This document shows positions 49 to 7,273 of a stretch of 7,273 nt of DNA, piece after piece. The DNA comes from Candidatus Aerophobota bacterium. Its GTDB lineage: Bacteria; Aerophobota; Aerophobia; Aerophobales; B3-G15. The notes below the pieces were generated by a model that worked only from the letters and a program-made list of their open reading frames with translations, was not told the DNA's origin and made no database searches. Numbering within the stretch: the first letter of the stretch is position 1; every line of letters begins with the position of its first letter. A program made the translations under genes and the position numbers. The stretch is taken from positions 1 to 7,273 of the forward strand of contig JACUUP010000076.1 in assembly GCA_014859225.1 (NCBI GenBank), given 5' to 3'.

Positions 49-1770
49 TTATTTCCTCACCCACAGCTCTTCTTGTGGCATAATACCAAGTAGAGGCAAG
101 ATACGAAAAAGTATTCTTCCGAACACAGGAGCTGCCACATCTCCTCCGTAGTATGCCCCCGCAGGTTCCTTTATCACCACAATTCCTGCTATTTGAGGAT
201 TACCTACGGGGGCAAAACCCATAAAGGAGGCAGTGTATTTTCCCTGTAAATAACCTCTGCCTTGAGGGGAAGGGATCTGGGCAGTTCCTGTTTTGCCTCC
301 TATGGTATAGCCTCTAACTTCAGCTTTTTTTGCAGTTCCTTCCTTAACCACATAACCCAAAATTTCCCTTAAAGTTATGGAGGTCTCCTCCGAAATCACC
401 CTTCTTATAATGTAAGGTTCATTTTTCTCAATTATGTTCCCTTCAAAGTCGCGTATACCCTTTACCACAAAGGGACGCAAAAGATTTCCTCCATTAACCA
501 CAGCAGATAAAGCCACCACCATTTGAAGCGGGGTTACCGCTATCCCCTGCCCCGTAGAAATGCAGGGCAAATCAGTAAGATACCAACTATTAACGGGTTT
601 AACCAGACCCTTTGCCTCTCCGGGAAGGTCAATGCCCGTCTCTTTGCCAAATCCAAAGTTACTAATATATCTGTGAAATGTATCCTTTTCCATTCGCTGT
701 GCAGCTTTAATCATTCCAACACTGGAGGAATTATAAATAATTTCTGCAAAGCTCATCTCTTTGTTAAATTCTTTCCAGTCAGTTATGGTATAGCTGCCAA
801 ATCTAAGGAAAGCGTCGCAATATATTTTCTCTTCTAACGAAATAAGTTTCTCCTCCAGTAAAGCGGCGGCTGTAAAAACTTTAAAGGTAGAACCCGGTTC
901 ATACATAAATTGAACTGCCCTGTTTCTTCGTTCGTAAGTGGCATAATTTGACCAATAATTGGGGTCATAATCTGGCTTATTTGCAAGCGCAATAATCTCT
1001 CCTGTATGAGGGTGCATAAAAATTGCTTCTACAGATTGTGCTCCGGTTTCCTTCAGAGCACGCGAAAGTTCCTGTTCCACAATTGATTGAACTTTAGAGT
1101 CTATAGTTAAAACTAAATCCTGTCCCGGGACCACCTCTCTTAAAGCATTCCGAGTAAATGGAATATAGTAGCCACGAGCATCTCGCTTTAATAAAACTGT
1201 GCCTTCCTCTCCCCGGAGTTTATCCTCATAATAGTACTCTATCCCGGACAGTCCCTGATTGTCAATTCCTGCCCATCCAAGAATATGACTCGTCAATTCC
1301 CCTTCAGGATAGAGCCTTTTTTTCTCCTCTATGAAACCGAAACCCTCCAGATTTAACTTTTCTATCTTTCTCTTATCCTCCACAGAAATCTTTCGGGCTA
1401 TCCACACGAAAACTGCATCTCTTTTTAATTTAGACAAAACAGAATCTTTATCTTCTCCTTCTAAAATGAGAGCCAAATTTTCGGCTGCTTGCTCCGGATG
1501 AGAAATTCTGCCCGGGGAAGCATAAAGGGAAAAGGAGTTAATATTCACACTAACAGGTTTAATATTTACATCATAAATAATCCCTCTCTCTGGAGATATA
1601 TCAACTACTCTTACCCGAGCCCTCTCAGCAAGACTTTTATACTTTTCATGTTCTATCACCTGAAGTTGAAAAAGACGAAGCCCAATAATCCCAAAACCTA
1701 AAAAAATAATCAAAAAAGGAAGGTGAATCCGAACTTTTCTATTGTTCCTTTTTTTCATAAAAGATATCAA
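49..1770 (-). CDS. ftsI: FtsI/PBP3-type septal peptidoglycan D,D-transpeptidase (class B PBP)
   Basis: This class B penicillin-binding protein cross-links septal peptidoglycan in the periplasm within the FtsQLB/FtsW/FtsI divisome. From the N-terminus it has a basic cytoplasmic tail (5-14), one membrane anchor (about 17-37), a PBP dimerisation/pedestal domain (about 55-205, containing SPERGIIYD) and a transpeptidase domain (about 240-560). The catalytic tetrad is STFK with Ser294 and Lys297, and the third motif KTG is at 493-495. The second motif reads SSS at 348-350 where FtsI normally has SSN. There is no PASTA repeat, and 573 aa is normal for the family. The start is uncertain. TTG at 1770 sits 4 nt after AAGG, within AAGGTGGT, while ATG at 1758 (MKKRNN) is 16 nt away, longer than usual. 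The gene overlaps ftsL by 32 or 20 nt, which implies translational coupling. SpoVD or another class B PBP is possible, but the dcw position argues for FtsI. Confidence 0.93.
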   Translation of the reverse strand: MISFMKKRNNRKVRIHLPFLIIFLGFGIIGLRLFQLQVIEHEKYKSLAERARVRVVDISPERGIIYDVNIKPVSVNINSFSLYASPGRISHPEQAAENLALILEGEDKDSVLSKLKRDAVFVWIARKISVEDKRKIEKLNLEGFGFIEEKKRLYPEGELTSHILGWAGIDNQGLSGIEYYYEDKLRGEEGTVLLKRDARGYYIPFTRNALREVVPGQDLVLTIDSKVQSIVEQELSRALKETGAQSVEAIFMHPHTGEIIALANKPDYDPNYWSNYATYERRNRAVQFMYEPGSTFKVFTAAALLEEKLISLEEKIYCDAFLRFGSYTITDWKEFNKEMSFAEIIYNSSSVGMIKAAQRMEKDTFHRYISNFGFGKETGIDLPGEAKGLVKPVNSWYLTDLPCISTGQGIAVTPLQMVVALSAVVNGGNLLRPFVVKGIRDFEGNIIEKNEPYIIRRVISEETSITLREILGYVVKEGTAKKAEVRGYTIGGKTGTAQIPSPQGRGYLQGKYTASFMGFAPVGNPQIAGIVVIKEPAGAYYGGDVAAPVFGRILFRILPLLGIMPQEELWVRK

Positions 1771-2134
1771 ACCACCTTCTTATTTGCCCTACAATTTTTG
1801 AAATCGGGCTTTTTAACTTTATTTTTAGCTTATCTATAAATGGTGGAGGGGAAGAGCTTTCTTCTGGGGGAGAGAAGTTTCCTTTCAAAAATCGCACCTT
1901 TTCTGGATTAACTAAACCAAGCTCCTTGCGTGCATAATCCTCCAGTCTGTTTAGAGAAAGATAGGGGGAGAGCTTTTCTTGAAGATAACCATTCTCCTCT
2001 ATCAGGGCAACTTTTTTCACTTCCAGTTTCTGCAGAAGATACCCTCTATCCATTAGAGCTGTATTGCGGTAGATTTCCAGTCCCAGAAAACACAGGATGA
2101 AAGTCAGAAAAAGAAGGAACAACTTCACAAACAA
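1739..2134 (-). CDS. ftsL: FtsL-like divisome bitopic membrane protein
   Basis: A small bitopic protein of 131 aa. It has a 2-3 residue cytoplasmic end, a hydrophobic helix at about 3-19, a charged heptad-like region at about 30-57 that should form a coiled coil, and the motif YARKELGLVNPEKVRFLK (68-84 region) typical of FtsL/DivIC proteins. It then continues into a Ser/Pro-rich linker (88-98) and a basic amphipathic tail (100-131). FtsL forms the FtsQLB complex that activates FtsW-FtsI. Its place between rsmH and ftsI supports this role better than sequence alone, since FtsL diverges fast. The start is TTG, one nucleotide after the rsmH stop, with GAGAGG seven nt upstream. An in-frame GTG two codons later is the alternative. 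The 3' end overlaps ftsI. Confidence 0.82.
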   Translation of the reverse strand: MFVKLFLLFLTFILCFLGLEIYRNTALMDRGYLLQKLEVKKVALIEENGYLQEKLSPYLSLNRLEDYARKELGLVNPEKVRFLKGNFSPPEESSSPPPFIDKLKIKLKSPISKIVGQIRRWFDIFYEKKEQ

Positions 2135-2135
2135 T

Positions 2136-3029
2136 TTACAACCTCTCTGCTGCTCTTAACCTGGCTGAACGACTTCTGGGATTTTCTTTGGTCTCCTGTA
2201 AAGAAGGTTTTACCACCTTAGGTGTAAGTATTCTCAGCTCTTTCCCCTCCACCTGTTTAAACTTGCTTTTAACTATTCTATCCTCCAGAGAATGATAACT
2301 CATTACACATATTTTTCCTCCTGATGAGAGAAAATTAATAGCCTCTGAGAGACTTTTTTGTAAATTTTCCAGTTCCCTGTTTACAGCTATCCTTAAAGCC
2401 TGAAAGGTGCGGGTGGCAAAATGAATTTTTCTACCTCTTCTAAATTTAGCCGGAACTGCTCTTTTTAAAATCTCCACCAGCTGTTTTGTGCTGGTTATGG
2501 GGCACACTTTTCTTTCCTCAATTATAAATTCTGCCATACGCTTTGCCCATCTCTCCTCTCCTAAATTCCACAAAATATCCTCCAGCTCACTTTGACTTGA
2601 TTTGTTAACAATATCAGCGGCATTTATTTTTTCTCTTTTGTCCATACGCATATCCAGTAAAGCATCTTCCCGAAAGCTGAATCCTCTAAAAACGTTATCC
2701 AGCTGATGAGAAGATAAACCAAGGTCATATAAGAACCCGTTAACTTTATAAATATTTTCTTCTTTAAGTATTTTTGTAATATCAGCAAAATTTGCCCTTA
2801 CCAGCACAACTTGTTCCTTATACTCCCTCAGGTGCTTACAAGAGATATTGATAGCTTCCTCATCCCAATCTATGCCAATGAGCCTTATCTTACCATCTGT
2901 TTTTTCCAACATAGCCTGACTGTGACCACCTGTTCCCAGAGTGCAGTCAACATAGATGCCACCTTTCCGGGGAGCTATGTAATGCAAAACCTCCTGCACC
3001 ATTACAGGGGTATGCATATGGAACTTCAT
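2136..3029 (-). CDS. rsmH: RsmH (MraW), 16S rRNA m4C1402 N4-methyltransferase
   Basis: A cytoplasmic SAM-dependent enzyme that methylates N4 of C1402 in the decoding centre of 16S rRNA. At 297 aa it is close to the usual 300-310. Visible family landmarks in order are HTPVM (6-10), the SAM-binding loop VDCTLGTGGHS (27-37), the acidic ribose-binding segment GIDWDEEA (52-59), YDLGLSSHQLD (101-111), RGFSFREDALLDMRMD (115-130), ATRTFQALRIAVNREL (205-220), SYHSLEDR (244-251) and the C-terminal NPRSRSARLRAAERL. All motifs are intact. The ATG start overlaps the mraZ stop as ATGA. Only a weak GGA lies upstream, so translation probably depends on coupling to mraZ. The second position in the cluster, after mraZ, is the standard one. 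Confidence 0.97.
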   Translation of the reverse strand: MKFHMHTPVMVQEVLHYIAPRKGGIYVDCTLGTGGHSQAMLEKTDGKIRLIGIDWDEEAINISCKHLREYKEQVVLVRANFADITKILKEENIYKVNGFLYDLGLSSHQLDNVFRGFSFREDALLDMRMDKREKINAADIVNKSSQSELEDILWNLGEERWAKRMAEFIIEERKVCPITSTKQLVEILKRAVPAKFRRGRKIHFATRTFQALRIAVNRELENLQKSLSEAINFLSSGGKICVMSYHSLEDRIVKSKFKQVEGKELRILTPKVVKPSLQETKENPRSRSARLRAAERL

Positions 3030-3466
3030 ATTCCGAGGTCCATAATTGTTTCAGCAATTTGCTCATAATTATCTTTTTTATGCTGGTAATACTCACTCCA
3101 TAAATCCTCGTCCCAGATTTCAATCTTATTGATAAGTCCGATTATTACCACTTTTTCCTTAATAGAGGCAAATTCTTTCAGGGGCTGGGGGATAATTATT
3201 CTCCCCTGATGATCCGGTTGCACCGGATGTGCCCCGGAGAATAAAATTCTCAGGAAGGCACGCACATCAGAGCGATTGATGGAAAGATTTTTTAATTTAT
3301 TGCCAAGGCTCTGCCACTCAGAGAAAGGATAAAAAAGCAGGCTCCTGTCAAGACCTCTTGTAATAATACAACCATCCTCCTCCCTGCTAATAGCCTGCCT
3401 GAAAGAGGAGGGAATGATTAATCTATTTTTCTCATCCAGTGTATGGTGATACTCACCGATAAGCAT
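3026..3466 (-). CDS. mraZ: MraZ, AbrB-like transcriptional regulator of the dcw operon
   Basis: A DNA-binding protein with two SpoVT/AbrB-like half-domains. The signature D-x-K-x-R-x-x-I-P occurs as DEKNRLIIPSSFR near the N-terminus and again as DHQGRIIIPQPL about 75 residues later, the normal duplicated MraZ architecture that assembles into a ring. I choose ATG at 3466 (146 aa) because the family begins with M-x-x-GEYxHTxDxK, here MLIGEYHHTLDEKNRL, and because GGAAG lies 5 nt upstream. A GTG at 3478 would add four residues (MEEK) but would lie inside an operator repeat and lacks a good ribosome binding site. MraZ represses the mra promoter in E. coli and acts as an activator in Mycoplasma; the repeats just upstream suggest autoregulation here. 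The 3' end overlaps rsmH by 4 nt. Confidence 0.95.
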   Translation of the reverse strand: MLIGEYHHTLDEKNRLIIPSSFRQAISREEDGCIITRGLDRSLLFYPFSEWQSLGNKLKNLSINRSDVRAFLRILFSGAHPVQPDHQGRIIIPQPLKEFASIKEKVVIIGLINKIEIWDEDLWSEYYQHKKDNYEQIAETIMDLGI

Positions 3467-3473
3467 CTTTTCT

Positions 3474-3508
3474 TCCACAATTTACCACTTTTTACCACTA
3501 AACACCAC
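3474..3508 (-). promoter_or_regulatory. Four-box MraZ operator (10-bp direct repeats)
   Basis: On the coding strand the core GTGG occurs four times at exact 10-bp spacing; plus-strand CCAC cores are at 3475, 3485, 3495 and 3505. Three of the four extend to GTGGT. Tandem boxes on one helical face just before mraZ are the known form of MraZ operators: E. coli uses TGGGN boxes with 5-nt spacers, and Mycoplasma uses boxes starting AAAGTG at a 10-nt period. The first box overlaps the -10 element and the last overlaps the mraZ ribosome binding site, a layout suited to repression. Binding by this MraZ is inferred. Confidence 0.85.
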
Positions 3509-3534
3509 TATAGGCTGTGCGATTTTTTTGTCAA
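3507..3534 (-). promoter_or_regulatory. mra/dcw operon promoter (Pmra)
   Basis: On the minus strand, TTGACA (3534-3529, a perfect -35) is followed by a 16-bp spacer and TATAGT (3512-3507, one mismatch to TATAAT). Transcription should start near 3500, giving a leader of about 34 nt before the ATG at 3466. This is the best sigma-70-type match in the window and sits where the dcw cluster promoter is expected. The -10 box shares bases with the first MraZ repeat. Confidence 0.8.
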
Positions 3535-3741: not shown

Positions 3742-4659
3742 ATGAACAAAGAATATCCTGGGTACGTAGAGCTGCACGAAAAAGGAGAGCTTGTAAAAAA
3801 AGTAGATTCTCTGTATGAGATGATGCAAAGCTGTCATCTTTGCCCCCGCCGATGTGGAGTTGCAAGATTAAAGGGTGAGGTTGGATACTGCAGGGCAGGA
3901 GCTGAAGTAGAAATCTCAAGTTTTCACCACCATATGGGTGAGGAGCCTCCCATCTCTGGTTGGTCAGGGTCAGGAACAATATTTTTTACTCACTGCAGTT
4001 TAAGGTGCGTGTTTTGTCAAAACTTCCCCATTTCGCAACTTGGTCATGGAAACAAAGTTTCAATAAGCAGACTGGCTGAAATAATGCTAATTTTACAAAA
4101 AAAGGGGTGCCACAATATAAACCTCGTTACCCCCACGCATTTTGCACCTCACGTAGTAGCAGCCGTTCATATAGCCGTTCGTCAGGGCCTGAGAATCCCT
4201 TTAGTCTATAACTGCGGAGGATACGAAGAAATCCTCACGTTACAACTTTTAAAAGGAGTTATTGATATATACATGCCTGATATTAAATACGGAGAAAACG
4301 CGCAGGCTAAAAAATACTCCAATGCACCTGATTACTTTGACGTGGCAAAAAAATCTGTGCAGGAAATGCATCGCCAGGTTGGTGATTTAAAACTTTCTCC
4401 AGACAACATAGCCCAAAGGGGACTTTTAATACGTCATCTAATCTTGCCCCACGATTTGGCTACAAGCGAAAAGGTGCTATACTTTATAAAAAATGAAATT
4501 TCCCCTGCAACGTACATAAGTATTATGAGTCAGTATTTCCCCGCTTATAAAGCGGTGGATGTAGAAGAGCTACAAAGAAAAATAACAAATAATGAATACA
4601 GAAAAATTTTAAGACTGACTCAGGAGCTTCATCTGGAAAAAGGATGGCGACAAAGTTGA
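3742..4659 (+). CDS. Radical SAM Fe-S protein, PflX-like (COG1313) family
   Basis: A 305-aa radical SAM protein. The cluster motif C-x3-C-x2-C is Cys85-Cys89-Cys92 (THCSLRCVFCQNF), preceded by EEPPISGWSGSGTIFF, a hallmark of the PflX-like group. An additional N-terminal cysteine set (Cys31, Cys34, Cys38, Cys50 in CHLCPRRCG...GYC) may hold a second Fe-S site. Other conserved stretches are NINLVTPTHF (126-135), PLVYNCGGYE (153-162), DIYMPDIKY (175-183), EMHRQVG (208-214) and RGLLIRHLILP (226-236). The family is often annotated as 'pyruvate formate-lyase activating enzyme-like', but its substrate is not established, and no glycyl-radical enzyme is adjacent. The start at 3742 is preferred because the N-terminal segment (EYPGYVELHEKGEL) resembles the family's, even though it lacks a ribosome binding site. 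The gene lies 31 nt before trkH and may share its transcript. Confidence 0.9.
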   Translation: MNKEYPGYVELHEKGELVKKVDSLYEMMQSCHLCPRRCGVARLKGEVGYCRAGAEVEISSFHHHMGEEPPISGWSGSGTIFFTHCSLRCVFCQNFPISQLGHGNKVSISRLAEIMLILQKKGCHNINLVTPTHFAPHVVAAVHIAVRQGLRIPLVYNCGGYEEILTLQLLKGVIDIYMPDIKYGENAQAKKYSNAPDYFDVAKKSVQEMHRQVGDLKLSPDNIAQRGLLIRHLILPHDLATSEKVLYFIKNEISPATYISIMSQYFPAYKAVDVEELQRKITNNEYRKILRLTQELHLEKGWRQS

Positions 4660-7189: not shown

Positions 7190-7273
7190 GCCGGGATGGC
7201 GGAATAGGCAGACGCGCATGGTTGAGGGCCATGTGGAGAGTACTCCGTGGGGGTTCGAGTCCCCCTCCCGGCA
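7190..7273 (+). tRNA. tRNA-Leu(GAG)
   Basis: The full cloverleaf can be drawn. The acceptor stem is GCCGGGA (7190-7196) with TCCCGGC (7266-7272), and the discriminator is A73. The D arm is GCG/CGC with GG in its loop. The anticodon stem is CATGG/CCATG around loop TTGAGGG, giving anticodon GAG (7224-7226), which reads CUU/CUC leucine codons. A long class II variable arm GGAG/CTCC has loop AGTA (7235-7246), and the T stem is GGGGG/CCCCC with loop TTCGAGT. The long variable arm and A73 are leucine features. The window ends at the discriminator, so whether CCA is encoded cannot be seen. Confidence 0.97.

Follow-up and report, generated by a model that had tools for sequence, protein, structure and literature searches.

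MraZ, a DNA-binding protein of the AbrB type, assembles into an octameric ring in the bacteria studied. In E. coli, the MraZ operator lies at the promoter Pmra (Eraso et al. 2014, as cited in PMC8475190 and PMC7761207). In Burkholderia cenocepacia, the corresponding site, PmraBc, consists of four repeats of 7 bases separated by 3-base spacers, and the fragment binds MraZ in EMSA (PMC7761207). For Mollicutes, the MraZ site of Fisunov et al. 2016 is quoted as (AAAGTGKN3)3, with K standing for G or T (PMC5282649).

The window, i.e., the whole stretch of 7,273 nucleotides analyzed here, carries four GTGG boxes just before mraZ. This array is very probably (about 95%) the autoregulatory MraZ operator heading the dcw cluster. 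An earlier note on this DNA had recognized it correctly in kind: the four-box array is an ordinary and very widespread form of the MraZ switch.

The GTGG array and its gene context

The elements of the array, of the predicted promoter, and of the genes that follow are listed below in the direction of mraZ transcription.

3529–3534, minus strand: predicted mraZ promoter, -35 element TTGACA, exact consensus
3507–3512, minus strand: predicted -10 element TATAGT, separated from the -35 element by 16 bp
3505–3508, minus strand: MraZ box 1, predicted site, core GTGG, fused to the -10 element
3495–3498, minus strand: MraZ box 2, predicted site, core GTGG
3485–3488, minus strand: MraZ box 3, predicted site, core GTGG within AAAGTGGT, a context also seen in the Mollicutes site
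3475–3478, minus strand: MraZ box 4, predicted site, core GTGG, adjoining the ribosome-binding region and including an in-frame GTG
3026–3466, minus strand: mraZ, 146 aa, starting with ATG and encoding the repressor that would bind the boxes (TIGR00242, 131.8 bits against a cut-off of 98.35)
2136–3029, minus strand: rsmH (mraW), second dcw gene (TIGR00006, 319 bits)
1739–2134, minus strand: ftsL-like small protein, named from its cluster position and a weak match below the cut-off (NF053549, 26.6 bits)
49–1770, minus strand: SpoVD/FtsI-type penicillin-binding protein (TIGR02214, 526 bits, below the equivalog cut-off of 688)

On the minus strand, the four GTGG cores follow one another at steps of 10, 10, and 10 bp over positions 3475–3508, an exact phasing without slip that the earlier note had already pointed out. 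The array extends, again as described there, from the -10 box (TATAGT, 3512–3507) to the ribosome-binding region, 8 bp before the mraZ ATG (3466), and the minus strand upstream of mraZ reads TTGACA-N16-TATAGTGGTGTTTAGTGGTAAAAAGTGGTAAATTGTGGAAGAAAAGATG. The core common to the four boxes is GTGG. The longer core GTGGT proposed earlier holds for boxes 1–3, but box 4 reads GTGGA, so the array (GTGGT-N5)4 is not literally present; a distinct GTGGT core was rejected on this ground and because the base also varies among relatives. The four-box pattern (GTGG-N6)x3-GTGG, with up to three mismatches allowed, gave no match in 200 dinucleotide shuffles of the window, and its exact form occurs a single time in the window and in the 1.8-Mb genome.

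Downstream, mraZ, rsmH, the ftsL-like gene, and the gene of the penicillin-binding protein stand in succession and thus constitute a dcw cluster. The MraZ encoded is intact, scoring above the curated cut-off of TIGR00242 and matching PF02381 in two stretches, which correspond to two MraZ domains. It retains the D-x-K-x-R and D-x-x-x-R motifs, as in E. coli and in solved MraZ chains, and shares 65% identity with its closest named relative, from a Candidatus Aerophobetes genome, which places the window in candidate phylum Aerophobota. A literature search for a paper on the recent MraZ structures 9qlr, 9qlg, 9r4j, and 9sx6 found none. On the other side, over a 275-bp gap, a radical SAM protein (PF04055) is encoded divergently from mraZ (3742–4659, plus strand), for which no specific NCBIfam model scored above its cut-off. 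At the far end of the window, a tRNA-Leu gene (GAG anticodon; 7190–7273, plus strand) comes after trkH and a trkA-like gene and stops exactly at the contig end.

The GTG at position 3478, within box 4, is in frame with the ATG at 3466 without any stop between them. If mraZ started there, box 4 would be coding and the operator would be reduced to three boxes. This is very unlikely, as the MraZ family profile starts at the ATG (MLIGEY), as do, at the aligned position (M-[LF]-x-G), all 13 phylum relatives compared and E. coli, and no Shine-Dalgarno-like sequence is found before 3478. The sister genome G002 has this box 4 as well, but there an in-frame TAA comes between it and the TTG start, meaning that the box is kept where a start is impossible. 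The profile start, the aligned starts, and the TAA of G002 thus rule against GTG 3478 as the start codon and, in line with the earlier note, box 4 is assigned to the operator.

Conservation in Aerophobota and beyond

The earlier note had made its reading depend on the array being kept upstream of mraZ in relatives, and this is what is found. Indeed, mraZ is present in 14 of the 17 phylum genomes examined and, in all 14, it is preceded by at least three exact GTGG cores at 10-bp steps, keeping in mind that counts over relatives, here and below, are not phylogenetically independent. Matches to the three-box pattern in the 17 genomes are almost confined to the region before mraZ, and a reversed control pattern gave none. 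Apart from mraZ, one match lies in the alanine racemase gene of the window's genome and another within a gene of G006 that is unrelated; a further entry (G015:C48), identical in sequence to C88, seems to be the mraZ promoter copied at a contig end. The cell-wall gene for alanine racemase, which contains three exact boxes (G000:C258:2888-2911; L034 1501-1524), was considered as an additional MraZ target and rejected, the match being intragenic, absent from relatives, and probably due to chance.

The comparison was extended to 74 mraZ upstream regions, comprising those of the phylum, of a domain-wide set, of GTDB loci, and of E. coli. At least three exact in-phase cores were found in 56 of them versus none of 2220 shuffles, with 6 out of 16 in the domain set and 35 out of 43 in the GTDB set. 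Unrelated tandem repeats containing GTGG do exist in other genomes (G165, G143, and G290), and the array might likewise be a product of chance or slippage devoid of function. The probability of such an origin is close to nil, as the spacers have diverged while the cores and their phase are kept in 14/14 phylum genomes and in distant phyla, against 0/2220 shuffles. A second alternative stems from the mraZ promoter of Staphylococcus aureus, for which a G-quadruplex has been reported (PMC11796246), and would have the G runs regulate mraZ through such a structure. However, the runs of the window are merely GG with loops of 8 bases, making a poor quadruplex, and a quadruplex gives no reason to conserve a strict 10-bp phase or the T of GTGG; very little credit is therefore given to this proposal.

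The exact four-box array was detected in 19 of 386 genomes spread over the domain, and in 10 of these 19 it stands 8–104 bp before mraZ. Two of the ten belong to the window's own family, the other eight to eight different families outside the phylum. Four exact boxes are also found in two further GTDB loci, L061 and L063. The earlier note had regarded the four boxes as a lineage-specific version of the site. This view had to be abandoned, since eight outside families have four exact boxes before mraZ and four repeats constitute the site of B. cenocepacia (PMC7761207).

The predicted promoter and box 1

The TTGACA -35 element is common to the 13 Aerophobota genomes scored. In the window and in its family mate, the sister genome G002, the -10 element and box 1 together read TATAGTGG, the final two bases of TATAGT being the initial two of the box. 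An in-phase first box is located on the -10 element in 10 of the 14 mraZ-bearing Aerophobota genomes. It is GTGG in the window's family and ATGG (TATAATGG) in eight other genomes of the phylum, the layout of which, registered on the -10 element, is TATAATGG-N6-GTGG-N6-GTGG-N6-GTGG, with TATTATGG in G004. Three in-phase boxes only are found in 4 of the 14 genomes, namely three of one genus and G010, where a 1-base slip separates boxes 1 and 2; box 1 is thus not indispensable. In G010 (L009), the array lies 238 bp from mraZ versus about 80 in its genus mate G009, and the leader contains about 160 extra bases in addition to the 1-base slip of the first GTGG relative to the -10 box.

Among 604 consensus promoters of the phylum, GG follows TATAAT in 25, eight of which are mraZ promoters. 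All eight mraZ promoters with that hexamer are followed by GG versus 17 of the 596 other consensus promoters (Fisher p = 2.6e-12), or 0.0285^4 = 6.6e-7 with one count per family, both values overstating independence because the genomes are related. These frequencies support the view that the GG is a part of the operator rather than a general promoter habit. It may be, although the odds are put slightly below even, that in Aerophobota the first box of the MraZ operator is built into the -10 element (TATAATGG; TATAGTGG in the window's family, where a stronger box would be gained at the cost of a weaker -10), with repressor and polymerase competing for the same bases. A known switch would then be tuned in a way typical of the phylum. 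What sets the array apart most is that box 1 and the -10 element have bases in common, a plausible but modest refinement.

As boxes 3 and 4, and perhaps box 2, are within the leader predicted from the -10 position, the repeats could also be thought to work in the mRNA, as an RNA element or by translational control, and not as DNA. Nevertheless, box 1 is in the -10 element and so outside the transcript, Rfam gave no match in the array region, and the leader folds no better than shuffles (z -1.07), making an action at the RNA level highly improbable.

The reading as an MraZ operator is favored by features found together at this locus. The array directly precedes mraZ, the first gene of the dcw cluster, has at least three direct repeats with a GTG/TGG core and a 10-bp period, overlaps the predicted core promoter by the two bases shared between box 1 and the -10 element, and is conserved in relatives. 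This evidence from position, conservation, and promoter overlap supports the interpretation put forward in the earlier note. With one helical turn (10 bp) from each box to the next, all four are exposed on a single face of the DNA, and neighboring DNA-binding modules of MraZ would contact successive GTGG boxes. The bound protein would most likely mask the -10 element together with the transcription start and shut off RNA polymerase. Repression would then lower the synthesis of MraZ itself and the expression of rsmH, the ftsL-like gene, and the division genes further down, amounting to negative autoregulation. Binding, repression, and the ring are extrapolated to this lineage from E. coli, Mycoplasma, and Burkholderia.

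Comparison with characterized MraZ sites

With these data, the MraZ autoregulatory switch is extended, at the sequence level, to the uncultured candidate phylum Aerophobota. A safe rule for annotation is to look for GTGG-N6 in three or four repeats just before mraZ, which also helps to fix mraZ start codons.

The E. coli K-12 mraZ promoter is AGTGGGAAATTGTGGGGCAAAGTGGGAATAAGGGG, with GTGG at 10-bp steps. As in the window, these steps are exact and the cores stand just upstream of mraZ (GTGGGAAATT GTGGGGCAAA GTGGGAATAA GGGG), whereas Pmra has three exact cores with a degenerate fourth at the 3' end. Its core is GTGGG instead of GTGGT, and its array is downstream of the -10 element, while that of the window begins within it. 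The site of B. cenocepacia shares with the window the four repeats, the GTG core, the 10-bp period, and the location at the transcription start but is given as downstream of the -10 box, which box 1 of the window overlaps (PMC7761207). The Mollicutes site also has a 10-bp period and a GTGG/GTGT core, box 3 of the window being AAAGTGGT, but it is described with three repeats and belongs to another phylum (PMC5282649). In the same bacteria, the HsdC site also consists of direct repeats with a TG core over a -10 element, but its spacing is off by 1 nt, and another protein controls restriction-modification genes through it (PMC5282649).

The earlier note had contrasted the core of the window with those of E. 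coli and Mycoplasma. The "TGGG" of E. coli is in fact the GTGG motif taken one base on, and the contrast is thus one of register only. The same GTGG is visible in the E. coli DNA and in the (AAAGTGKN3)3 formula as stated for Mollicutes (PMC5282649). The same GTGG repeated at one helical turn is found in E. coli, Mollicutes, Bacilli, and Aerophobota, under published core names that differ by register.
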